Source: Gari tellinella
Lineage: Eukaryota > Mollusca > Bivalvia > Cardiida > Psammobiidae
Assembly: GCA_922989275.2 (NCBI GenBank)
Contig: OV277869.1
Coordinates: 25,182,189 to 25,246,188 of the forward strand
Length of the DNA stretch: 64,000 nt
Reading direction: 5' to 3'
Shown here: piece by piece, positions 4,820 through 62,532 of the stretch
Numbering within the stretch: the first letter of the stretch is position 1
Layout of the letters: the number at the start of each line of letters is the position of its first letter
Notes under the pieces: model-generated
Told to the model about the DNA's origin: nothing
The model's input: only the letters and a program-made list of their open reading frames with translations
The model's database searches: none
Translations under genes and position numbers: made by a program

Positions 4820-5175
4820 TTAACCAGCGCAGCAGTCCCACGACAATTTCGCTTCTTTCACGCCTCGGCCGGTCCTCAAGCTCCCTGCTTTGATTACCTT
4901 GTTGAAGCTAACGAAGAAATCTAGGTCATTAGGGCCATCTAGCTGAGGGTCATGATTCCCAAACAAGTTGAAGAAACAGAGTGTGTCGCACTTAGGCTTC
5001 TCGTCCTCTATGCGGTAATATCCCGAGGCTATTCTAATGGTTACTGTGGAATCAGTGGCGCCTACATTCTGGGGCCAAAAGCCTACAGTGCAGTTGTCGT
5101 TAGCGTGGGCCTTAATGGTTTCGTTAACAATCAAGATATTTGCGTCAAAGAAGTGAGTGTCAGGATCATCACCTT
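4820..5175 (-). CDS. Gene A exon 4 (terminal coding exon)
   Basis: 356 nt, acceptor CTTATTTACAG, stop TAA at 4822-4820. It encodes 117 residues containing the family-defining stretches VTIRIASGYYRI, CFFNLFG and a C-terminal LSWDCC. The intron end just upstream of the acceptor is also similar to that of the paralogue at 62385 onward, which supports common descent of the whole exon-intron boundary. The coding part ends only about 13 bp before the end of a repeat element (3237-4806), so the 3' UTR is largely transposon-derived. The paralogue runs 17 residues further after its CC pair. Confidence 0.85.
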
Positions 5176-8100
5176 CTGTAAATAAGTAAAGGAAAATATT
5201 GTTTTAGGCTAAATATAAACAGATTTAATTCTAGTTATCGCTGAAACTTAGAGCAGGTTAAGGAGCATTCTGTTTTACCACAATATCAGCCTGTTTTAAA
5301 ATTTAAGTTATCATCTGTTAGGATATCAAACCTTGGGCCCGTTTCATAAATTTTCGTACGACAAAAACGATCGCAAGTCAAAAAAAGCAACAATTACTCT
5401 CTAATTTTCTATCTAATCCTGGCTTGTGACATCTCTTTGGAATCGTCTTTTCAAGACGATTCCAAAAAGATTTTTCAAGACGATTCTAAAAAGATGTCAC
5501 AAGACAGGATGAGACGGAGAAATAAATAATAATTGAGACTTTTATAATCTGACTTACGACAACATTTGTCGTACGAAGTTTTATGAAACGAAGCCCTGTT
5601 TCTTCAGGGGCATACTAATGACAGTATAAATTGGAACTATTTTCTTCAGTGGGAAAATAAATTTAAGACGTAAAGACGTGTATATCTACTAGCAATGAGA
5701 AATATATTACTCCACTGAGGAAAATAGTTCCAATTTATAATGTAACGAATAAGTACCATCCGAAATATTATTTATATCCTATCAAATGTTAGCTCAAATT
5801 TGAACTATCACTAAAGGTGATTCTACTATCATCACTATATTTGACACGGATATGGGATCATTAGTATATATACACAACTTAACCAATGAATGAAACTACG
5901 CTTTGTAAAAGTACTAAAAAGAGAGATAATTCTAGATCGAATAGATAAACACAACCACAATAACTACATGTGGTGCTTAACCCTTTCCCACATAGCATAT
6001 CTCTAGTATTGAATATAGGTGTCCACTTAAAGCAGGTAGAAAGTAAAGCAGAATGCGCTTTAAGCGCATTCTGCTTTACTTTCAGCCTGCTTTAAGCTAT
6101 CATCTGCTAGAATATAGAACATATTTTGTATTATACATATTTATGAATGTATAAATTGGAACTATTTTCTTCAGGGCAAGAATAAACTGAATGCGCTAAA
6201 AGGCGCTTCTATTGGGTAAAGGGTTAAGTTAACGTTTTCTTGTTGTACTCCGGCAATATACGTACGGTGACGGACGCCCCGATCTATTATGAGCGCGTAA
6301 TTAAGGCCTCCTTCCGAGTTCTCACGCGCGGTCCTGGTGCCCGTTTCATAAAACTTCGTACGAGAAATGTTTTCGTTAGTAAGATTATAAAAGTTTCAAT
6401 TTTTATTTATTTCTCCATTTAATTCTGTCTTGTGATGTTTCTTTGGAACCGTCTTGAAAAAACGATTCCAAAGAGATGTCACAAGACATGATTAGAAAGA
6501 GATATCAGAAATTAGGCGTATTTTAAGTTTTGACTTACAACCGTTTTTATCGTACGATCGTACGACGTTTCGTAAGACAGGTCCGGGGCGATCCTAGATT
6601 AACCGTGTCGATCTGACTCCCACCGGAAAGTAACCACGGATGCTTAGAAATATTTAATAAAGGGGTCACCGGGAGTCACCGGGACAGATAACCTGAGCCG
6701 ACTGAATCCGGGCAATACCGGTGAATGTCAAAGCGATGTCAGAGCTATAACAGTAGCGTTTTCAGTAAATATGGAGAAAACGTAATTCTTTCGTTCAAAC
6801 GCAAACGCATCGCAATGAAATATAGAAAATGTCAACATTTTGACAATTCAGACGAACAGTTCTAATCTGAGTGGCAAACAGTTTGGCACCAGAGCAGACG
6901 CCGGGTGCCGGGTTACCCGGCGTCTGATCTGGCTCCAAACTGTTTGCAATAAAAATAATAGTTAAAGCGTAACCGGAGTTATTTGGAAGGAAAACACTAT
7001 CTCTACTGTACTCTGCACTCTGCACATTGGGCACATACTACAAGATAAAAAGGGTCGTAAGTCAAAACTATAAAATACATCTAGATTCTGATTAAATACT
7101 TTAGAGCTTTTGAATCTGACTTCCGACAATATTTGTTGTACGACTTTCGTAAAACGAGTCCCATGGGTCTTACGAAACGTCGTACGATAAAAACGGCCGT
7201 AAGTCAAACTTTAACAAGACATTATTCTTTCCCGTTTAAACGCAAACGCAATGCACTAAAATGTGGTAATGTACTTTTAGAAGTTTCTAACTATCATTTC
7301 ACTCTGTTTTGCAAACATGTTGGAGCCTGATCAGACGCCGGGTTATCTGGCGTCTGATCAGGCTCCAACCTGTTTGAAATGGAAATAATAGTTTTAGCGT
7401 AAATGGGTTTAATGGATAAGAATAACATATCAGTAAAGTTAGCGCACCGGTCTCGTGCAGCACCATAGAACATGCTTATCTTAACCCATTACCCCATAAA
7501 TACGCTTTTTTACGCCTCTGATTTATTCCTCCTTTGAAAAAAATAGTTGAAATGTATACAATCATAAATGTGCATTATAAGAAATATTTTCTATATTCTG
7601 GCAGATGGTAGTTTAAAGCAGGCTGAAAGTAAAGCAGAATGTGCCTTAAGGCACATTCTGCTTTACTTTCAACCTGCTTTAAATAATCACCTATATTCAA
7701 TAATAGAAATATGCTATGGGATAATGGGTTAAGTGGGAAAGTGTACGAATATATATCTGATGTTACCGTGCCTACCTATTTACCATTATAAACTATTCTT
7801 TTTTTTAAAAAAACCCCTCGGATAAGTCAGAAAAATCGGATTATGATCAAATTTGCAGGAAACTATTACGTCAAATACTAATGGCAGCGCCATTTAAAAT
7901 CTAAACATCATATCTAATTAGCGTTACGAAAGCTCTAAAAAATGTTACACACAATCGTCTGGTCGTTCTTCTTCGGCCTACACAATCCCAGCGTCTATAA
8001 CTGTTTTTCAGTTTTTTTTTAAATCGACACCCTTCGTCTGAAACTCACTGTCACATGTCCCGATGTGATTGTGCCCCGTGTAACCAAATTCTGAATGTTT

Positions 8101-28089: not shown

Positions 28090-30090
28090 ATTCAAAGAGT
28101 TATATATAAAATTATTATCCTTTTTATTATAACAATTTTATTACCCTTTGTCACATAACAATGATACTATTTTCAGGGTACAATGTAACTGTGGCAATTG
28201 TTGATAAACTTGACATTCTTATATTTTGCTTTGACGACGAAGCCAGAAAACACACAGAATAAAATAGAATATAACCTTTGTTATGCAAAAAATCTAATAA
28301 GAGCCATAAGCATAGAAACCACAAATACAAATCAAGGAAAACGGTATGGTAAGATGGTGTTTGGCAGAATATTCTTTTATCTACATGACTGTGTAGCCGA
28401 ATATGTTACAACAAATAATTCAGGCTTGAATCAATATCTCAAACTTTAAAATATAAATTCTACTCGTGATCTTTTCTGAATACGGGAGAGACATGCCGAT
28501 ACATCAATAGCCTTTTGCCGAAAGTAAACGTGCATGTATCAAATCATATCAGTTTTAATAATAATGTTTATCAAAACTCCTGTTTAAATGGATTTCTGGA
28601 CAAGCATCTTAAACAGGGCAATGCAATTTTTTCAAATAGCATTTGAGCCCCATAGTTAGGTATTAAGTATAGTTGTTGAAGTGTGGTATAGCAATGTGTT
28701 GTATATAGCACAGTACAGTACGGGGCGTTCATTTAATTGTGTCACTCTTGCAGTTTTCTGCCCTCCAACTAATAATAGCGCATTGAAATTTTTGTCTGCT
28801 TCACAATAAAATGATTGTACATATTGACTGAAAATTTCGATTGAATCCGTCAAGCAGTTTAGATATTATTTAAGATTTAAGTTGGTCAATTCATAAACAC
28901 TGGCTATTGTAGTGTATGTAATGGCGTACGTTGAAATACGGGCTTACGGTAAAGGTCGAATAATTTTTAAAATGTCGATTTCATTGATATACCTTGACAT
29001 TTATATGAAAAATTGAAGATGTTCAGTGTCATAAATGCCATTTTCTAATCAAATGAAACAATTTAAAGATTACTAATTGTACTTATTAACGGCAACTATC
29101 CAATTTGGCGGGTGCCAAAGTTTAAGCTGCTGCTGTGGTAAATCTACTAAAACAGCACGCAAGAAAAGCATTTGAATATATAACTGACGGTATAGGTAAA
29201 ATATCGGGTTCAGATCATATGTTTTTGATACGCGAGTGTAAAGTTAGAAGTTGTTTTGTGTGGTGGATCCTTTATCCTTTCATTGAGAATAAAACTACAT
29301 ACTCATGTAATACGTTGTAAAATACTTGTCTAAAAGCAGAAATATATACAAATTACACCTTTCTGTGCTGCTTAAAAGTGATTTATAATTATAAGCAACA
29401 CATATAAATAATTTTATCGCCAGAAAATGTGTAAAGAAAAATTTATATTGGTTATTGCGAAATACAAAAATGCGCGGGAAAAAGTTTTAAATGCATTTAC
29501 GTTCGAAATCCGATCACGCTTTACTTAAATTTAGAAACCAGTCTACTTAAATTTCCGAGGAGGGTTTATACAGTCAATATACTGAAAAAAAAGAAGAATT
29601 GTTATGCAAAACACAAACCTGCAATCCTAATTTAAAGCTATGCCTCATAAATCAAATTGTAGATTTTCCCCACATATATAATGGTAAATGATTTTCTGTA
29701 AAATTAAACGATAACCCAGCTACCCCGTCTGTATTATTCACCGCAATATGGTTTTTATATTTGATTTTCGTTCCTTTTATCGAAGAAAGCTGACTTTTTA
29801 TGCCGAGGCATCTCTCAATGTAAGCCGGACTGTGCCGATTTACAGTGTTTGGTGGGTACACCTATAGGGGGCTATTTTCCCACTTTTTACATTCAAATTT
29901 TAATACTAAAATGATATATTTCTGTCAAAGAGAAATTTTTCTAAGGGTTGGACTGAACGAAGTTTGCACGAATCTCATATTGCGCCTTTAATGATCCCGG
30001 TGACAAGATTAAATGAACGCCCGTCGTACAGTTTATTTCAAAGTACAGCACAGTATAGTATATACATGTAGTACATTATAGTACAGTATA
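28090..30090. other. AT-rich stretch without recognised features
   Basis: Several short open frames occur, but none has splice signals, domains or similarity that I can see. Confidence 0.45.
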
Positions 30091-30091
30091 G

Positions 30092-30283
30092 CAGGGCTCC
30101 AGATAAGAGGTAGTTTTTTCAACAAATCCCACATTTTCTCACTATTTTTAGCACCAAATCCTATGGTGTTACTACTCATTAGAATCGTCTCGAAGAGACG
30201 ATTCTAATGAGTAGTGACACCATAGGGTTTAATTCAGAAATAAAGATTTTAGTTTTTGAAAAACTACCCTTATCTGGTGCTCT
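30092..30283. mobile_element. hAT-like MITE, copy 2
   Basis: Over 95 percent identical to 832-1024 by eye. AGTATAG flanks both sides (left one base away from the CAGGGC end). The high identity suggests recent activity of the family. Confidence 0.85.
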
Positions 30284-30338
30284 AGTATAGTATGGTACGA
30301 TAAATCACAATATACTATTATCATTTCTATCATCATTA

Positions 30339-31145
30339 TTAAGATTTATATAGCGCTATTTTCACACAGGAGTTGTGCGTGTAACAGCGCTTCGCATGAA
30401 ATTATACAAATGTACAGTTTTCCCTCCCTACAACGGCCCTCCCAACAACGACTCCCTCCTTAGAACGACACTTTTCGCAATTCCCTAGACAGGATGATTA
30501 TGTCTAACGAATTTACTGCTGCAATGTCGTCTGCTTAAAATTGTCGTCTGCTTTTTTTCTCAAAGTTACATATTGGACATTTTGACAAAAACACTTAATG
30601 ACGAATGACAAACAGCTTGAATCCAGATCAGACGCCGCGTTACGCGGCGTCTGATCTGGGTTCAAGCTGTTTGCAAATGAAAGCCAATTTCCCTCTCTTT
30701 AACGACTCCCTCCGAACAACGCACACAATCTCTGTCTCCCATTGGGTGTCGTTGTAGAGAGGGAGCGCTGTACCTACAAAGCGAGAAAAAATAAATAACT
30801 ACATTTAGATCTACACGGAAACATACTACCTTATGAATTTACATAGAAACACATTCCAAACAAGGTTAACTCTTTTGTAAAATCAATTTTACATTGAGTC
30901 AAGTATTTAAAAAGATCTATAAATAGTAATTTTATTGTCAGTTTTGTCCCAAGAACTCCGGGACCTACATTATCCAAAGCTGAATTATACCCTTCATCTA
31001 TGAAATAAACTACCCAAGAATCATGCAATAGACCGTATCCAGCTTGTTTCAAAGAGATCAGAGTCATTATCCCTACCATCAAGATCCACCAGACAGGCAC
31101 CGGGTCGACAGTACAACTCCAGGACTCCAATCTAGACCATATGAA
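30339..31145 (-). mobile_element. LINE 3'-UTR copy, interrupted by a MITE
   Basis: The segment matches the 3' UTR of the LINE at 53.0-53.9 kb: the tail region TATATAGCGCT followed by TTTTCACACAGG, the block near 30780, and CCCTACCATCAAGATCCACC near 31075. It is split at 30413-30772 by a TA-flanked MITE; the 53-kb copy shows the uninterrupted site. A 142-codon open frame across it (30831-31259 minus) has no recognisable domain and is not considered a gene. Confidence 0.75.
30413..30772. mobile_element. TA-MITE (TACAACGACCCTCCC family), with empty-site control
   Basis: TACAGTTTTCCCTCCCTACA...GTAGAGAGGGAGCGCTGTA. Hairpin GACAAACAGCTTGAATCCAG, ATCAGACGCCGCG and complement. Flanks read ATG|TA|CCTA; the LINE copy near 53090 reads ATGTACCTA uninterrupted, so TA was duplicated on insertion. 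Confidence 0.9.
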
Positions 31146-31539
31146 TGTATGTTTAAACTCTACCTTCTTAGAAGTTGCTAACAAACATGCAGCTATCAAA
31201 AGGAAATAGCAATTTCCCAAAGCAGACCCGTTTATGAAAATGGAATTAAGGAAACCCACTTTTAAGAAAATACTGCTTCATAACAAACATATTTACACAG
31301 GTCAGGCAAATGTATAAGAACTTCAGGTGTGGCGATTTGCAAAACGAAACGAGATGCCATAGTCATTGTACCAAGTAATTATTTTGGATCAAATGAATGA
31401 ACTTGTGCGATTATAGTGATATGTGTCCTAATAAGGTTAACATATTGAGTTGGGTTTTACGGCACGGTGACACATAAATGGTCATATGACGCTGAATTTT
31501 CAATAAAATATTCTAAAACTCTCAATTATTAGTTATTTC

Positions 31540-31665
31540 TCCATCTAATCCTGTCTTCTGACTGCTCAAAAGAGACAAAATTAGATCGAGAAACTAGATG
31601 AATTTTAAGGTTTTGACTTGCGACCGTTTTTGTCGTACGGCGTTTGGTATGACAGACTGGCCCCA
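31540..31665. mobile_element. Decayed GGGCCC-type MITE
   Basis: TCTAATCCTGTCTTCTGAC and TTTTGACTTGCGACCGTTTT, TGTCGTACGG of the 5338-5600 family; central hairpin mostly lost. Confidence 0.5.
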
Positions 31666-31901
31666 GTTTCGTTGTAGTGCCGTTGTGCTTATCACATGGC
31701 CAGAATATGTTATCTTATTTGAATTCTTGTTTCATTTGTATTATCTAGATCAATAATACAGAATGTATTTGCATGTAGATTGGATTAAGATTATGACAAT
31801 TTGTATGGAATGTTTTGGCTTTTTTTTTCCAAATTTCACACTGATGGTTTTCCTATTGATGCTGATTGTAAAATGTATCCGTTGCCTATTGATTGAGGTA
31901 A

Positions 31902-32108
31902 TACAGTAAACCTCTCTATTACTATCACTATATTGTGACAATTATTAGTCGTTTAAAACAGGTGACTGCTTAAAGCAATGTGAAAGTGAAACATAAAGCT
32001 CCTTTAGGAGCTTTCTGTTTTATTTTCACATTGCTTTAAGCTCTCACCTGTCTTTTATACAGACAATCAGCCTTATTCTTATTGGTCGTAATAGAGAGGT
32101 TCTACTGT
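31902..32108. mobile_element. TA-MITE (CAGTAGAACC family)
   Basis: TACAGTAAACCTCTCTATTA...AATAGAGAGGTTCTACTG. Hairpin TTAAAGCAATGTGAAAGTGA, AACATAAAGCTCC and complement. Confidence 0.9.
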
Positions 32109-32257
32109 TGTGATGTTTTTGTGTCTGAGTAGGACACGCTTATGTCTCCATTGTCTATTGATTGAGGTTACTTGCAGTGTTATTTTGTTCTTAAGTAGGA
32201 CGTACGTCCGTTCAAGGCCATGCAAGGCCATATAAAGCTGCCTCATCTTTTTATCAC

Positions 32258-32463
32258 TACAGTGCTCCCTCTCTACAACGACCCTCCCTACAACGAGCTT
32301 TGTCGCAGTTCCCTAAACAGGCCACTTATTTCTAACGCTTTTACTGCTGCAATTTCGTCTGTTTAAAATTGTCGTCTGTAGTTTTGTCTCAAAGTCACAT
32401 AGTGGATATTTTTACAGAAAAATACTTGAAGTTGAGTGACAAACAGCTTGGGGGAGCGCTGTA
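32258..32463. mobile_element. TA-MITE (TACAACGACCCTCCC family), internally deleted
   Basis: TACAGTGCTCCCTCTCTACA at the left; ACAAACAGCTTG joins directly to GGGGGAGCGCTGTA at the right, so the hairpin and most of the right half are lost. It lies about 230 bp upstream of the Naiad frame. Confidence 0.8.
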
Positions 32464-32791
32464 CATGACTCTGAGCGGACGAAAATTCTTCTAAAGCAGT
32501 AATGTATGCATTATATTCCAAAGCAAAAACACCTCAGTACTCATCATGGAAAAGTATATATACGAATGTCAGCTTGAATATGTCGAAATATAAAACTACA
32601 CTTTGCAATTGTTAAGTAGACCTAAGTTATTCGGAAGCATAATCTATGCAATTATCAGTATCTTGAGACAATGAGTATCTGTAAAGTTTCAAACTTTATA
32701 TTCTATTCAACGCAATAATTCTGTTTTATTACGACCACTGAACAAAAAACGTAGAGTGCATCCTATTATTGAAAAGTGCAATGCTAAGAGG

Positions 32792-32920
32792 TGAGCGTGT
32801 TGCAATTTTTTATTTTGCAAGTCTACTATACAATCAACAGTAAACGGTAGATTATTTAGTGTTGTCATAGATTCAGACATCAACTGACGAACTAACCATA
32901 TTGTATACGTGTTAACTTGA
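32792..32920 (+). other. Three in-frame TGA codons in the endonuclease zinc/GIY region
   Basis: TGA at 32792-32794 (AKR-TGA-AC-C), 32885-32887 (DIN-TGA-RTN) and 32918-32920 (VLT-TGA-KAPGCGIQYVG). The first matches the RC..C pattern that precedes GIY-YIG domains of Penelope-like elements. The third is the LTC cysteine of the CCHH ligand set. Protein similarity continues through all three without a frame change. Confidence 0.7.
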
Positions 32921-34491
32921 AAAGCACCAGGTTGTGGTATCCAGTATGTTGGGCAAACCGGTCGTCCTCTAAAAACTAGGTTTAATGAACATCTTCGTAC
33001 TTGTAGGAACAAAAAACTGAGGAACTTTCTGTATCAACATTTTCGGAAACCTGGACATGGATTAGATTTGATTTCAATTCAACCTGTTGAACATGTTACG
33101 TATGATATAAATGCTACTAATAGTTTCAAATGTAAGGCTAGATTTATAACGGAATTAAAATGGATTAAAAATTTACAGACACCCTTTCCTTTAGGCTTGA
33201 ATGATAATATATACCAATCTGGCAATATTTCTAAAGAACCTTCAATTGATATTTTTTCGATTTATTCTACACGAAAGCGTAAATCTAGATCGCATGGTAT
33301 TCGTATAAATGGAAATATTAAACGTAAATCACGTCAGTCGATTTCTATTACAGATTTGCATAATCTGCTGTTACATTCTGGTAAACATAAAATGCTTTCT
33401 CGGCTTTCTTCGTTGTCATTGTCGTCTTTAAAAGATATTGACGACAAGGCTGATGGAATAATTTTACGCACAGATCCTCTGTATTATACTGCAGGTTTAA
33501 TACAAAGTTATACTCAGCATGTTCTTAGACCTCATATTGATTCTTTAAACGATCACAAAAGATATTTCATTAAGGTCCCTTTTATAAATAAAGGTATTGA
33601 TTTCATAGATTTACAAAGTATTCTCCGTAACAAAAATGTGATGAATGCTATTCCAAATTATTTCAAAAATCTTGTACCACCTATTATTTGTTATAAGTAT
33701 AATAAATCTGTTAGAGGGTTAATTTTTAACTACAATAAAATTGTTTCTGATCTTAAAATTCTCGAAAACACACCAGATACATGAGACTGTCCCTCTTCTA
33801 AATTCTGTTACGCTCCAGCGGGTCATATAATAACTGGCAATTTTGATATCATTAAAGATAAACGCATTAGAGCGCTTTTGAGTAAGGGACCTAAATTTAG
33901 ATTACCTGCCTTAATTGATTTCGATACTTGTCGCAATCATATTTCTGAAGCTTTGAATAAGTATAGTACCAACTGGTGCCGCAGAGAACATGCTGAAAAT
34001 GACGCTCTTACAAAATGGAAAGATTTTATTTTTGATATTATCGATACCCGGATTTCGTTCTATTTATCCAATAACCATCTTTTACCACCTAAACCTAAAT
34101 TTAACATTCGTCACTTAAAGAAGGGCATACAAGACTTTCATTCCTAATATGTACTCGTTCCTGCAGACAAAGCATCCAATAATGTGATAATTGTATGACG
34201 ATTACATTATGTTGATGCTTTAAACCAGGAACTTGTGAATACTAATTCCTATACAACGACTAATTTAACGGAGCATAATGTAGTATCTGATCATCTTGAT
34301 ACTTGTAAACAATTAAAGCTGACGTCAACATTACATGTCATAAACTTCCTACTATGTACTGGATACCAAAACTCCACAAAACACCATATAAGTCTCGTTT
34401 TATTGCTAATTCAAGTGCATGTACTACTACTAAGCTTTCCAAACTTTTGACATCGTCTTTAATTAAAATCAAAGAACATGTTCAAAGGTAT

Positions 34492-34575
34492 TGTGACAAG
34501 ACTTACGAAAATTCTGGACTTAATCTGTTTTGGTGTGACAAGACTTACGAAAATTCTGGACTTAATCTGTTTTGG
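34492..34575 (+). repeat. Perfect 42-bp tandem duplication inside the RT frame
   Basis: 34492-34533 and 34534-34575 are identical and duplicate 14 residues (CDKTYENSGLNLFW) in frame. It lies between the WIPKLHKTP motif and the YDFSTLYT motif. The lack of any divergence implies a recent event, either in this copy or carried by its source element. Confidence 0.95.
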
Positions 34576-35691
34576 TCTATCAAAAACTCGAATGAAATTT
34601 TGACGAAGTTTGAACATAGAAAATACCAAGCTTGCAATATTAGTACGTATGACTTTTCAACACTATATACTACCTTACCTCATAATTTAATAAAAGCTAA
34701 ACTTATACAACTTATTGAAAAGACTTTTGCCAGAGAAAGGAAACTATTTCTGGCGTGTAATACTGATCGTGCATTTTTTACAAATGACACGGTTAAGCAT
34801 TACACTATGTGGACTTGCACCGATGTCTGTAAATCACTATCATTTCTTCTGGATAATATTTATGTACGTTTTGGGAGTACCATATACCGCCAAGTGATTG
34901 GTATCCCTATGGGTACAAACTGTGCGCCCCTTGTCGCAGACCTATTTTTGTACTGTTATGAGAGGGACTTTATGCTAAGTCTAAAACCTGATACACAGGC
35001 AGATATGATCGAAGCCTTTAACAACACATCGCGCTATCTAGATGATATTTTTAATATAGACAACCCATTTTTTGATACGTTGTTTCCTTTTATTTACCCA
35101 AAAGAATTACGCCTTAATAAAACAAACGAGTCAAATTTATCGGCACCATTTTTAGATTTGGATCTTTTAATAAATAACGGTATTGTTTCTTCTAAGATTT
35201 ACGATAAACGAGATGATTTTGATTTTAGTATTGTAAACTATCCTCATCTAGATGGCGATGTTCCCCGTTCTACATCTTACGGGGTTTATATTTCACAACT
35301 TATTCGTTTTGCTAGGGCTTGTACCTCTGTTGAGGACTTCCACATTCGTAATAAAACTATTACTGAAAAGCTTCTTAAACAGGGGTACAGATTTCATAAA
35401 CTTCGTAAAACATTTTCTAAATTCTTTTATAGAAATCTTCCTCTCATTAACAAGTATAAATGTAACTTAAAGTCTTTTCTGCGGCAAGGTATTTCACATC
35501 CGGAGTTTTATGGTGATGTGATTTACAGACTTCGTAAGATTCTTGGACATATGCATTTTCAAAACCTATTTGTGAAACGTATTAGATTTTTCCTCAAAAA
35601 AGATTATGATCCAACTATTTTGCTGCGCACTTCACGTTTGGTTATCGATTAATCTACAATTGATAACTATGCTTTCCTCTTTGGTTGTGCG

Positions 35692-35800
35692 ACGACAGAC
35701 AGGGCTTAGCACTACATGATGATGTATCTCTAAAACCGTCCTTAACCGGGAGAGTTATGTCGGATTTTCGTGCTTTGGTTTTTCTCTCCCTCTCTGTCGT
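35692..35800 (+). promoter_or_regulatory. SECIS element (type 2) in the Naiad 3' UTR
   Basis: The hairpin begins 40 nt after the stop codon. Lower stem: 35692-35704 pairs with 35788-35800 (12 of 13), then AGCAC (35708-35712) with GTGCT (35770-35774). The quartet is ATGA at 35716-35719 facing GAT at 35763-35765, giving the required A.G, G.A and U.U pairs. Helix II is 12 bp (35720-35731 with 35751-35762, one mismatch, G.U pairs included). Then comes an unpaired AAAA (35732-35735), 12 nt from the ATGA as in known SECIS elements, and a short helix III (CCG/CGG) with an 8-nt loop. Such elements recruit SBP2 and the Sec-specific elongation factor, so that UGA is read as selenocysteine. Confidence 0.85.
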
Positions 35801-36100
35801 ACCCCATGTCTTACAGTTACTCGTGACTACAGACTATTCGCTTGAGTACAATTTGACCGTTGCCATAGTGGGTTATTTTTAACACGGGCTTGAATGTTTA
35901 ATTCTTTCCCGTGTTACTAATAATCCTGTCAGAGAATTTTGTTAGATGTTTTACATGTATTTACTTACTGTGCTGGCGGTCTTGTTATGGTATGACTGTG
36001 TGTGTGTTCTGCTTTAGAGATGGGTGTATTGTTTGTGTTGCGTTTCCGGCTTGAGTCTTCTTTCGTATTTATAATTTGATACGATATTTTCACTGAATGT

Positions 36101-37200
36101 ATATAACTCCATTTAATTGTGTGAGATGTTGGAACTGCTACAGTTTAATATTTTTTAAGGGAAATAACTCTTTTTTACTCAAACAATCCATTTTTTAACA
36201 CTTGCCTTTCAATTTCTTTTTATATTTTGAACTGCCTTAGCATGATCTTTTATTTGGTAGAATACAAGAAAAAGTTTCTAATATATTTGAATAAAACTTC
36301 AAGTTAAATTAGTACCTACAAAATCCATAATGTTGATATTCAAAGATTCACTTTTTAAAAGCTGATGCCTGTTTGTTTTGATTTAGTTGCTTTTGCGCAA
36401 AAAACACCATAAACATGAATAAAATGGTGAAAAGCAAAATTATCATGTTTGCTTGCCTTTGAAATAAATTTCCTGAAGCTCGTACTTTGAATGGATAAAA
36501 TTGGAAAAAAGACCTAATTTGACACACTTTTTTCCAAATGGCTGTGGTTAATAAATTGACACCGACATATGATTTTTTCGTATTTCTTTACCTTAAACAG
36601 CGCTATCAAAACATACATTTATAGAAGGAAAGTTTGATCTTTTGAAAATTTAGCTCATGGGTTTAAAACATATTTAACTCTTTCAACTCCATGTGCCTGT
36701 TTAAAATATACATTTGCAAGATACGATGGCTCCTTGTGGAGCGCTCTGATCAGGTTCTACACTGTTAGTCAACTTAGAGAAGTATTTATTAAACTACCCA
36801 TAATTCCAAGTACACCAGCTCCAAAGGGACCTAATAGACACTAGAGTTACTTAGTGTTGAACAGCTATAATGACTGTGATTGTGGGACAGGGGTATTTAC
36901 GTCATAATGTCAGCTGATAGCTGGTCGGCTTCAAAAACTTTCATTTGCCAGATTATTAAAGTGTTGATCAGTGTTACTACACACGAGTATCGAAAAAGCT
37001 TGGATTTGAATCAATCGCTAACAATTTCTGAAAATATTAGTCAAACATGTTAACCAAGATATCGGTAACTAGTTTGTGGTATTTAAGGAGAATAATAAAA
37101 CAGCAGCCAACAGCTTGGATTATTACAAACACAATGTGTCACAGTAAGATTGACCCGTGTTTGATGTTGAATACAGCTAACTCTTTAAACATATATTATT
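36101..37200. other. AT-rich stretch without recognised genes
   Basis: After the Naiad 3' UTR I see only AT-rich DNA and, at about 36676-36780, a decayed relative of the MITE at 1593-1843 (hairpin remnant TGGCTCC...GGAGCG near CTCTGATCAGG). The true 3' end of the Naiad copy may lie in this interval. Confidence 0.4.
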
Positions 37201-37205
37201 GTTAT

Positions 37206-37606
37206 TACAGTCAAACTTCGATACTTACCGGTATTTAACCATTTCCCTTATAGAAGCGCCTTTTAATGCATTCAGTTTATTCCTCCGCTGAAGAAAGTAG
37301 TTCCAATGTATACAGTTATGAATATGTATCATAGGGAATAGTTTCTTTATTCTAACAGGTTAAAGCAGGCTAAACGTATTAAGCAGAATGCGCCTTAAGG
37401 CACATTCTGCTTTACTTTTAACCTGCTTTAAATATCACATATTTTCAAAAATAGAAACAGGTTATTTGGTAAAGGGTTCAAACGTTAAATGTCGATAAAT
37501 CGATCTCTCTCAAGTCACACATACCCATATTTCAAAGTGAAAACGTGGCTAAGCCAAATTTTCACTTTGAAGTATGGGTGTGTTCGAATATCGAATATCC
37601 ACTGTA
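37206..37606. mobile_element. TA-MITE (CAGTCGAACTT family) with nested MITE
   Basis: TACAGTCAAACTTCGATAC at the left, CGAATATCCACTGTA at the right. Hairpin TTTCAAAGTGAAAACGTGGC/GCCAAATTTTCACTTTGAA. A TTAA MITE (37235-37480) is inserted. A full relative lies at 62533-62730. Confidence 0.75.
37235..37480. mobile_element. piggyBac-like TTAA MITE, nested
   Basis: TTAACCATTTCCCTTATAGA...GGTAAAGGGTTCAA. Hairpin GCAGGCTAAACGTATTAAGC, AGAATGCGCC and complement. Confidence 0.8.
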
Positions 37607-38167
37607 TAATACCACATATAGAGACTACAACGAATTTGCATAAAGTATGTGTATATGTATGTATGTCATATATTTAATTTTGATAAAACAAGGTTGAACG
37701 TTAAGCAAAATGCACAATGAGGTGCATTAACTGACCGCATGTCTTCCAAATTAGAAACAAGCTACGTTTTAACTAAACATATGGGTGAGTCCGTAGTATC
37801 GAATATCCACTTAATTATCCCAAATGTAGGAACTTACGACTAATATACATAAAATATGTTTATATGTATGTTTGTCATATGTTTATTTTCGATAAATCGA
37901 TTTGCTTAAGTCACACATATTTGTATTTCAAAGTAAAAACATAGCTATAAATATGGGTATGTTCGAACTAAAACGAGTTCGAAGTATAGAGTTTCCACTG
38001 CATTATAACAAAAATTGGAAACTACGACGTACTTACTTAAAGTAGGTCACTCCAACGTTGGGTAATAAGAAATGAATAAACAGTGTATCACTGATAGTCT
38101 CTACATAAAAAGATAAACAACCCTTAACTCAAAAGCTTCTTTCTAGTTTTGAAGACATGTGGTCACT
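37607..38167. repeat. Diverged relatives of the CAGTCGAACTT element
   Basis: ATCGAATATCCACTTAATTA, CGATAAATCGATTTGCTTAA and GTTCGAACTAAAACGAGTTC recur, so another decayed copy is likely; ends not definable. Confidence 0.45.
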
Positions 38168-38420
38168 TTAACCCTTTACCTGATAGCCTATTTTCTAGAA
38201 TTGAAGATATGTGACTACTTAAAGCAGGTTGAAAGTAAAGCAGAATGCGCCTTAAGGCGCATTCTGCTTTACTTTCAATCTGTTTTAAGCTATCATTGGC
38301 TAGAATATAGAAAACATACGCTATAATATATATTCTTGACTGATTAAATTGGAACTGCTCTCTTCAGCGGAGGGATAAATATCATTCGCTAAAAGGCGCT
38401 TCTATGGGAGAAAGGGTTAA
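38168..38420. mobile_element. piggyBac-like TTAA MITE
   Basis: TTAACCCTTTACCTGATAGC...GGGAGAAAGGGTTAA with the GCAGGTTGAAAGTAAAGCAG hairpin. A decayed relative follows to about 38610. Confidence 0.85.
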
Positions 38421-53934: not shown

Positions 53935-54470
53935 CTAATAATAAATATTAAAGAAGTGTGTTTTCAGACGTTTTTTGAAGACTGCAACTGAGCTCGCATC
54001 TCTGATGTCTGATGGTAGAGAGTTCCAGAGCTTTGGGGCTGCATGCATGAAACTTCTATCTCCAAACTTCACTAAACGACTTCTCGGCACAACCAGCGAT
54101 ACTGATTTACTCGCAGACCGCAACTCTCTTCGAGGTCTATACACGTCCAGCATACTAACAATGTACCTTGGAGAATCATTGAACATGGCTTTGTATGTGA
54201 GTGTCAGAATTTTGAATTCAACTCTGTGTTGAACTGGAAGCCAGTGAAGCTCCATCAAGACTGGAGTGATGTGATTGTACCGAGGAGTCCTGGTAATGAT
54301 GCGGGCTGCTGTATTTTGCACACGCTGTAGTTTTCGTAGTGAGTTTTGGGGAATCCCATATAGCAGTGAGTTGCAGTAGTCAATGTTTGATGTGACCAGA
54401 GAATTGACCAAAGTCGTTGTAGCTTCTGGAGAAAGGTACTGTCTAATATGACCTATTTGCCGCAGATTAT
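53935..54470 (-). pseudogene. LINE reverse transcriptase C-terminal fragment
   Basis: About 178 residues remain open. They include LVTSNIDYCNSLLYGIP, LQRVQNTAARIITRTPR, LMELHWLPVQHRVEFKI, YRPRRELRSAS and AAPKLWNSLP..IR, ending FKKRLKTHFFNIYY-stop. These are the hallmark C-terminal motifs of CR1/L2/Rex-type non-LTR polyproteins, after the catalytic palm, which is missing. Reading continues upstream of the first internal ATG (54411) as LRQIGHIRQYLSPEATTTLV, so the break is a 5' truncation near 54470. It cannot be autonomous. Confidence 0.85.
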
Positions 54471-54479
54471 CACATTAAA

Positions 54480-61971: not shown

Positions 61972-62384
61972 TTACGGCTGTTTGGGCACTGCCGTTACTT
62001 GGGTTACTACCGGCGGCCCCTGGTCCATCTCGCAGCACTCCCACGACAGTCTGGCCCCACAGACCCCTTTGCCGATGATCCTTGCGACCCCTGGGTCGAT
62101 AAGTCTGTTGAAACCAACGAAGAGAAAGAAGTCATTCTGGCCACTAAACTGAGCGTCATTCTTTCCAAAGAAGTCGAAGAAACATTTTTTATTGCAGACA
62201 GCCTCGTCCAAGCCCATATTGTTCCGTATGCGGTAATATCCGGAGGCGATCCTTACTGTGACGACAGATGCAGTGGCGTTTATATACTCGGTCGATATAT
62301 TGCAATTGTCGTTAGAGTGGACAGTAAGGTCTTCGTTGAACATCGCCATGTTGGAATCATAGGTGTGAGTATTAGCATCGCTCT
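61972..62384 (-). CDS. Gene B: terminal exon of a paralogue of gene A (partial gene)
   Basis: 413 nt in phase 1, acceptor TTTACTGATTAACAG, stop TAA at 61974-61972, 136 residues. It aligns along its length with gene A exon 4: VTVRIASGYYRI, CFFDFFG and LSWECC match at the same spacing, as does an upstream DNC. Identity by eye is about 40 percent. It has two sequons (NIS, NAT) and one cysteine that gene A lacks, in GKGVC. The C-terminus extends to VPKQP, 17 residues beyond the CC pair. The earlier exons are not recognisable between 62385 and 64000 and presumably lie beyond the right edge, as intron 3 of gene A is nearly 5 kb. Confidence 0.8.
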
Positions 62385-62532
62385 CTGTTAATCAGTAAAG
62401 AAAAAATTGTTTGAGGTTGACCATACAGTAAAGTTCGCTTATGACGAACACTTCGGGGCCTCCTGAAAGTGTACGCTTTAGCAACCCACATTTTACTATT
62501 AACGTCTAACTACTATGTTATAGACGAAGAGG

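Follow-up and report, generated by a model that had tools for sequence, protein, structure and literature searches.

The window analysed here, 64,000 nucleotides of the genome of the bivalve Gari tellinella, contains on its forward strand a truncated copy of a Naiad-type Penelope-like element, with an endonuclease, a linker and a telomerase-like reverse transcriptase (RT). Its features are given below, the five in-frame TGA codons being numbered S1 to S5. Counts of relatives refer, among the 93 proteins aligned to the window, to those having a letter at the site, and counts of copies to the readable ones among 59 other copies of the same genome.

32698..35900, forward strand: Naiad-type Penelope-like element copy, 5'-truncated, compared with genomic copies as far as 35900
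32699..34198, forward strand: frame of the endonuclease, the linker and the RT start, with five TGA, one TAA and no TAG
32777..32779, forward strand: conserved Cys codon TGC just before S1 (TGC in 52 of 53 copies, TAC in one)
32792..32794, forward strand: S1, TGA (Cys in 39 of 40 relatives; TGA in 53 of 53 copies)
32801..32803, forward strand: conserved Cys codon TGC between S1 and S2 (TGC in 53 of 53 copies)
32885..32887, forward strand: S2, TGA before the GIY half-motif (Cys in 46 of 47 relatives, Trp in the other; TGA in 57 of 57 copies)
32918..32920, forward strand: S3, TGA at the first Cys of a pair flanked by the two GIY-YIG half-motifs, a presumed CCHH zinc ligand (Cys in 41 of 45 relatives, Trp in one; TGA in 57 of 58 copies, AGA in one)
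32933..32935, forward strand: conserved Cys codon TGT paired with S3 (TGT in 59 of 59 copies)
33782..33784, forward strand: S4, TGA at the first Cys of the CxC linker, which reads UxC (Cys in 82 of 85 relatives, Trp in three; TGA in 54 of 59 copies, TGT in five)
33788..33790, forward strand: second Cys codon of the CxC linker, TGT, paired with S4 (TGT in 59 of 59 copies)
34145..34147, forward strand: TAA, nonsense in the window copy (58 of 59 copies have a Lys codon, AAA or AAG, and the copy L054 has TAA)
34196..34198, forward strand: S5, TGA for the Cys that follows ADKASNN where the RT starts (Cys in 87 of 93 relatives, Trp in four; TGA in 58 of 59 copies, TTA in one)
34199..34309, forward strand: region where the window copy shifts its reading frame (26 of 48 copies scored with a Cys-form query have a continuous frame with five TGA and no further stop)
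34309..35649, forward strand: open frame of the telomerase-like RT part, recognised by homologues and by the fold of a relative
34420..34422, forward strand: tenth conserved Cys column, TGT, in the RT (TGT in 57 of 59 copies, TAT in two)
34492..34575, forward strand: exact 42-bp tandem duplication within the RT frame
35650..35652, forward strand: TAA, premature end of the window copy (all 52 readable copies have a sense codon)
35707..35709, forward strand: TAG, stop shared by the family (TAG in 51 of 52 copies, GAG in one)
35708..35774, forward strand: SECIS-like hairpin with a complete AUGA / AAAA / GGAU core, matching Rfam RF00031 (SECIS_1)

An earlier note, made from the sequence alone, had counted five TGA, one TAA and no TAG in frame between 32702 and 34200, and the same positions were found here. 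Homology to the other copies starts at 32698 in 37 of the 39 closest ones and, on the 3' side, 36 of these 39 still match at 35900, where the compared stretch ends. Beyond the position corresponding to 32698, 34 of the 39 close copies have an upstream peptide in common, which contains a stop in one of them (L047). A sixth TGA of the window, at 32672, precedes the region of homology with the copies and was therefore not counted as a site of the element.

The order of the domains in the window element is the permuted one of the Naiad clade, with an N-terminal GIY-YIG endonuclease followed by a CxC linker and the RT. The canonical EN+ elements, such as Penelope/Poseidon and Neptune, share the GIY-YIG endonuclease with its CCHH and the telomerase-like RT but differ by the C-terminal position of their endonuclease and by the lack of a CxC linker. 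The GIY-YIG domain PF01541 was detected at the N-terminus of the read-through (E 5.6e-05; 23.8 bits for a Pfam cut-off of 22.6). As for the CCHH of the Naiad definition, S3 and the Cys codon at 32933 lie between the GIY and YIG half-motifs, and C100, H119 and H134 of the Cys-containing relative P0246 hardly vary across the family alignment, one of the ligand codons being TGA in the window. The linker is represented by TGA-GAC-TGT at 33782-33790, where relatives have CxC, and a telomerase-related RT occupies the C-terminal side. The structure model of a Cys relative combines an I-TevI GIY-YIG domain, a comparison resting on two I-TevI rows for this endonuclease part, with a telomerase-like RT. 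No Pfam match of its own was found for the RT frame 34309-35649, and a phmmer search with the endonuclease half found no match at E 1 among solved structures. A Naiad-type architecture is thus supported by the homologues and by the model of a Cys relative, both of which agree with the identity proposed in the earlier note. The definition of Naiads also includes an insertion-in-fingers domain, pseudo-LTRs, a preference for microsatellites and the absence of a hammerhead ribozyme; in this truncated copy, a scan of the window positions 30000-38000 gave 31 Rfam matches with E 5 as the limit, and no hammerhead was among them. Database relatives amount to 4726 for the RT half and 543 for the stretch between S3 and S4, the best 120 being listed in each case, and to 93, all listed, for the whole read-through.

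The cysteine assignments of the earlier note all hold when the five TGA sites are compared to the 93 relatives, most of which have Cys there, even with a few N-terminal rows that are visibly chance alignments (e.g. P0266, P0316 and P0324) kept in the counts. The Trp residues found at S2 to S5 in some relatives probably represent TGA codons translated with table 4 by the gene caller; one of these proteins, P0268, has Trp at S2, S3, S4 and S5, Cys at S1 and its four other Trp elsewhere. At the position of the TAA 34145, the relatives have Lys (43 of 92) or other polar residues, and never Cys. Among the 888 columns with at least 20 letters, 10 reach the threshold of 80% Cys in the relatives and all five TGAs are among them, which has a probability of 5.5e-11 under random placement. 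The ends of database proteins provide a further view of the sites: of 333 aligned proteins, 61 stop immediately ahead of S4 and 40 immediately ahead of S5, no other position gathering more than four ends (ends were counted where the alignment reached to within 4 residues of them), and many database RT proteins begin just after S5, which indicates that the clade commonly has stops there. In a set of 18 aligned sequences, 11 run on to S5, and S4 is Cys in all 11.

Copies of the element were examined in the same genome, of 1.598 Gb in 80 contigs, the 19 contigs bearing the examined copies adding up to about 1.595 Gb. At least 136 similar copies were scored out of 1184 first-look candidates. The 59 copies retained comprise 39 close ones, from a DNA search in which the best 40 of 947 candidates were scored (one of these being the window copy), and 20 more diverged ones picked from the 136 matches; they share a recent ancestor and are consequently not independent. 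TGA is present at 279 of their 286 readable site codons, and all five sites have TGA in 47 of the 53 copies in which the five are readable. The exceptions are five TGT, all at 33782, a single AGA at 32918 and a single TTA at 34196, and neither TAA nor TAG was found at the five sites in the 59 copies. The alternation of TGA and TGT at S4 constitutes direct DNA evidence of an exchange with cysteine. According to the earlier note, sense codons other than TGT or TGC at these sites in further copies, or TAA and TAG as frequent as TGA, would refute its reading; in the 59 copies, TGT is the sole alternative to TGA that recurs, and the reading was not refuted. Other in-frame stops total 31 in 53,856 codons (15 TAA, 9 TGA and 7 TAG, counted over 32693-34199 and 34309-35704, the frame-change stretch 34199-34308 being set aside); no position has one in more than two copies, and 38 of the 59 copies are free of them. 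A separate search with the Cys-form protein P0246 as query revealed 229 TGA, 14 TAA and 3 TAG in frame in the best 48 of 5222 candidates, with exactly five TGA in 38 of the 48, 26 of these 38 lacking TAA and TAG; among the same 48, no copy without an in-frame TGA was found.

Selection was estimated by dN/dS between the 39 close copies and 14 of the more diverged ones (L060-L073; L054-L059 were left out). The ratios, which come from non-independent pairs and are given without confidence limits, are 0.51 between S1 and S3, 0.37 between S3 and S4, 0.17 between S4 and S5, 0.13 over 34309-34600 and 0.26 in the rest of the RT. Being below 1 after each TGA, they suggest that selection seems to act on the protein beyond every one of these codons. 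These data bear on the possibility that the copies form a non-autonomous family, dependent for its amplification in trans on a helper that codes for Cys, in which the TGAs were fixed by drift in a founder. Since close copies are 98-99% alike, a single founder could explain the uniformity of the subfamily; yet more diverged relatives end or read Trp at the same sites, the ratios stay below 1 downstream, TGA alternates with TGT at S4, a SECIS-like hairpin (described below) is present and the Cys-form query retrieved no TGA-free copy among its best 48 of 5222 candidates, so that we regard this scenario as very unlikely.

The window copy is itself unable to make the protein. Its two in-frame TAA codons, at 34145 and 35650, belong to its decay; at the second position, the readable copies have 49 CAA, 2 CAG and 1 CAT. 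As a separate observation, L054 shares the TAA at the Lys codon 34145 of the window and nevertheless belongs to the group with TGT at S4, which could reflect either a recurrent change or a shared history. One could consider the five TGAs as nonsense mutations of an ordinary pseudogene, a dead element, in view of the real damage constituted by these two TAAs, the frame change and the 5' truncation. This damage is, however, private to the window copy or nearly so, whereas the five TGAs recur in almost all copies, on conserved Cys, with TAA and TAG absent from the 286 readable site codons; many database relatives moreover stop at the same places and the dN/dS ratios are below 1 after each TGA. 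The pseudogene explanation is extremely improbable on these grounds.

The family terminates with a codon other than TGA, the TAG at 35707, on which a hairpin follows that has the plan of a SECIS element, with AUGA, an A-rich loop, the GA side and two stems, and a score below the gathering threshold. In the window it obtains 29.7 bits with RF00031, for a gathering score of 35, and E 0.011 in a scan of 8 kb against 4227 families; in 301 bases, SECIS_1 reaches E 0.00042 and is the sole Rfam match at E 0.1. The core is located at 35716-35719 (AUGA), 35732-35735 (AAAA) and 35762-35765 (the GGAU side), and its bases are unchanged in 52 copies, except one C for T at 35717. Sixteen other copies (part of the 59, with L019 left out) were searched at E 1, and 15 of them have SECIS_1 at the corresponding position, with 26.7-32.2 bits, all below the gathering score of 35; it was not found at this threshold in L056, and no other Rfam family matched any of the 16 copies at E 1 or better. 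With the limit set at E 0.01, no Rfam family matched in 17 copies, since E grows with the number of bases searched. In the 8-kb scan, nine microRNA-family rows have a better E than SECIS_1 but fall far short of the gathering scores of their families; three of the microRNA-family alignments are plain inverted repeats. Free folding lends weak support: the 67 bases fold into a hairpin of the SECIS plan with z -1.75, and a wider stretch of 101 bases folds otherwise (z -0.62).

The window copy uses TGT or TGC for its 25 Cys codons and TGG for its 7 Trp codons, and four conserved Trp columns have TGG in the window, as do 231 of the 233 codons readable there in the copies (the others being one TGA and one TGT); TGA is therefore not the Trp codon of this element family. 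A decoding of TGA without selenium, as cysteine or tryptophan in a variant code or by plain readthrough, is accordingly hardly credible: reading TGA as Cys would restore the conserved residues of the family, but this codon usage and the SECIS-like hairpin oppose it, and plain readthrough of five stops in succession would be inefficient.

The window thus very probably holds the truncated, decayed remains of a Naiad-type Penelope-like retrotransposon that was active recently and encodes several selenocysteines (Sec). Its in-frame TGAs are found where homologues have Cys, and the nearly exclusive TGA in the copies, the TGT at S4 and the SECIS-like hairpin fit the selenocysteine-encoding Naiads to which the earlier note had likened it. 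The recent activity may be deduced from the copies that are 98-99% alike. In intact members of the family, a single transcript would be translated with its five UGAs decoded as selenocysteine, one SECIS hairpin right after the UAG stop would guide the five recodings, and the product would be one uninterrupted protein with endonuclease, linker and RT, in which five of ten conserved cysteines would be replaced by Sec, one in each neighbouring pair. That Sec is actually inserted at the five UGAs is what these comparisons of sequences lead us to infer. A UGA terminator beside the SECIS would probably risk recoding; the family uses UAG. Besides the hairpin and the copy-specific TAA at 35650, a feature that goes beyond the earlier note is that each TGA retains a conserved Cys neighbour.

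The ten conserved Cys columns read in order C-U C-U U-C U-C U-C in the window family, the grouping into neighbouring pairs being our own; the members of the S3 and S4 pairs are adjacent in sequence. No TGA was found at the partner Cys columns in the 59 copies. All ten columns are Cys in 27 of the 93 relatives, and most of the remaining ones are incomplete; with its Trp taken as U, P0268 gives CCC U U C U C U, the tenth column being uncovered. This pattern would fit a tolerance, or a preference, for a single Sec in each pair. The alternation of Sec and Cys, one of each per pair, with the presumed zinc-ligand pair and the CxC linker among the pairs concerned, is the less expected part of the picture. 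Binding of zinc by the Cys/Sec pairs and formation of a Se-S bond are two candidate functions of Sec here. We tentatively raise the possibility, which we hold for less likely than its converse, that the mixed pairs are natural zinc sites with selenolate ligands or Se-S redox switches, in which case transposition would depend on the selenium supply of the host. Selenocysteine is normally limited to a few enzymes, mostly redox ones. The numerous copies offer natural replicates within one genome to study why Sec replaces Cys and which sites revert, a reversion which, among the 59 copies, is seen only at S4 and to TGT. They also make it possible to ask if metal sites tolerate Sec and if transposition is limited by selenium.

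Among known systems, selenoprotein P likewise has several UGAs decoded in one mRNA with 3' SECIS elements, but it is a host gene and not a retroelement, with two SECIS and a Sec-rich C-terminal tail. Naiads of spiders and clams have reportedly evolved independently to encode several selenocysteines. Retroelements with multiple selenocysteines have reportedly been described before (Craig et al. 2021), and the window element would be a further member. The Naiad clade of Penelope-like elements is the subject of Craig, Yushenova, Rodriguez and Arkhipova (2021, Mol Biol Evol 38:5005-20), which is cited in PMC11167929 and PMC11846391. Among the titles and abstracts retrieved in literature searches, none concerned selenocysteine in Naiads.

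Three relatives (P0086, P0232 and P0297) were found in MAGs of lucinid-clam symbionts. No relative was found in viral contigs by the protein scans, and the scanned prokaryote genomes provided a single distant element, located in a MAG (L001), which has Cys at S5. Some Cys-form Naiad relatives (P0245, P0247 and L001:1-2640) have a C-terminal ubiquitin hydrolase (UCH, PF00443) fused to the RT, with E 1.1e-33 in P0247 and 5.6e-27 in L001, this domain being also present in the precomputed annotation of P0245 and P0247.

Elsewhere in the window, two exon-like frames on the reverse strand, 4823-5203 and 61975-62391, contain cysteines and are related to each other (45% identical over 118 positions) at a distance of 57 kb; no Pfam match was found for them at E 0.1. 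The open frame 53938-54474 on the reverse strand, likewise with no Pfam match at E 0.1, presumably resembles the end of a non-LTR retrotransposon polyprotein. Near-perfect short palindromes flank the element at 30156-30230, 30609-30673, 31955-32054 and 38218-38289, with arms 88-97% complementary, and account for matches to microRNA families of Rfam.
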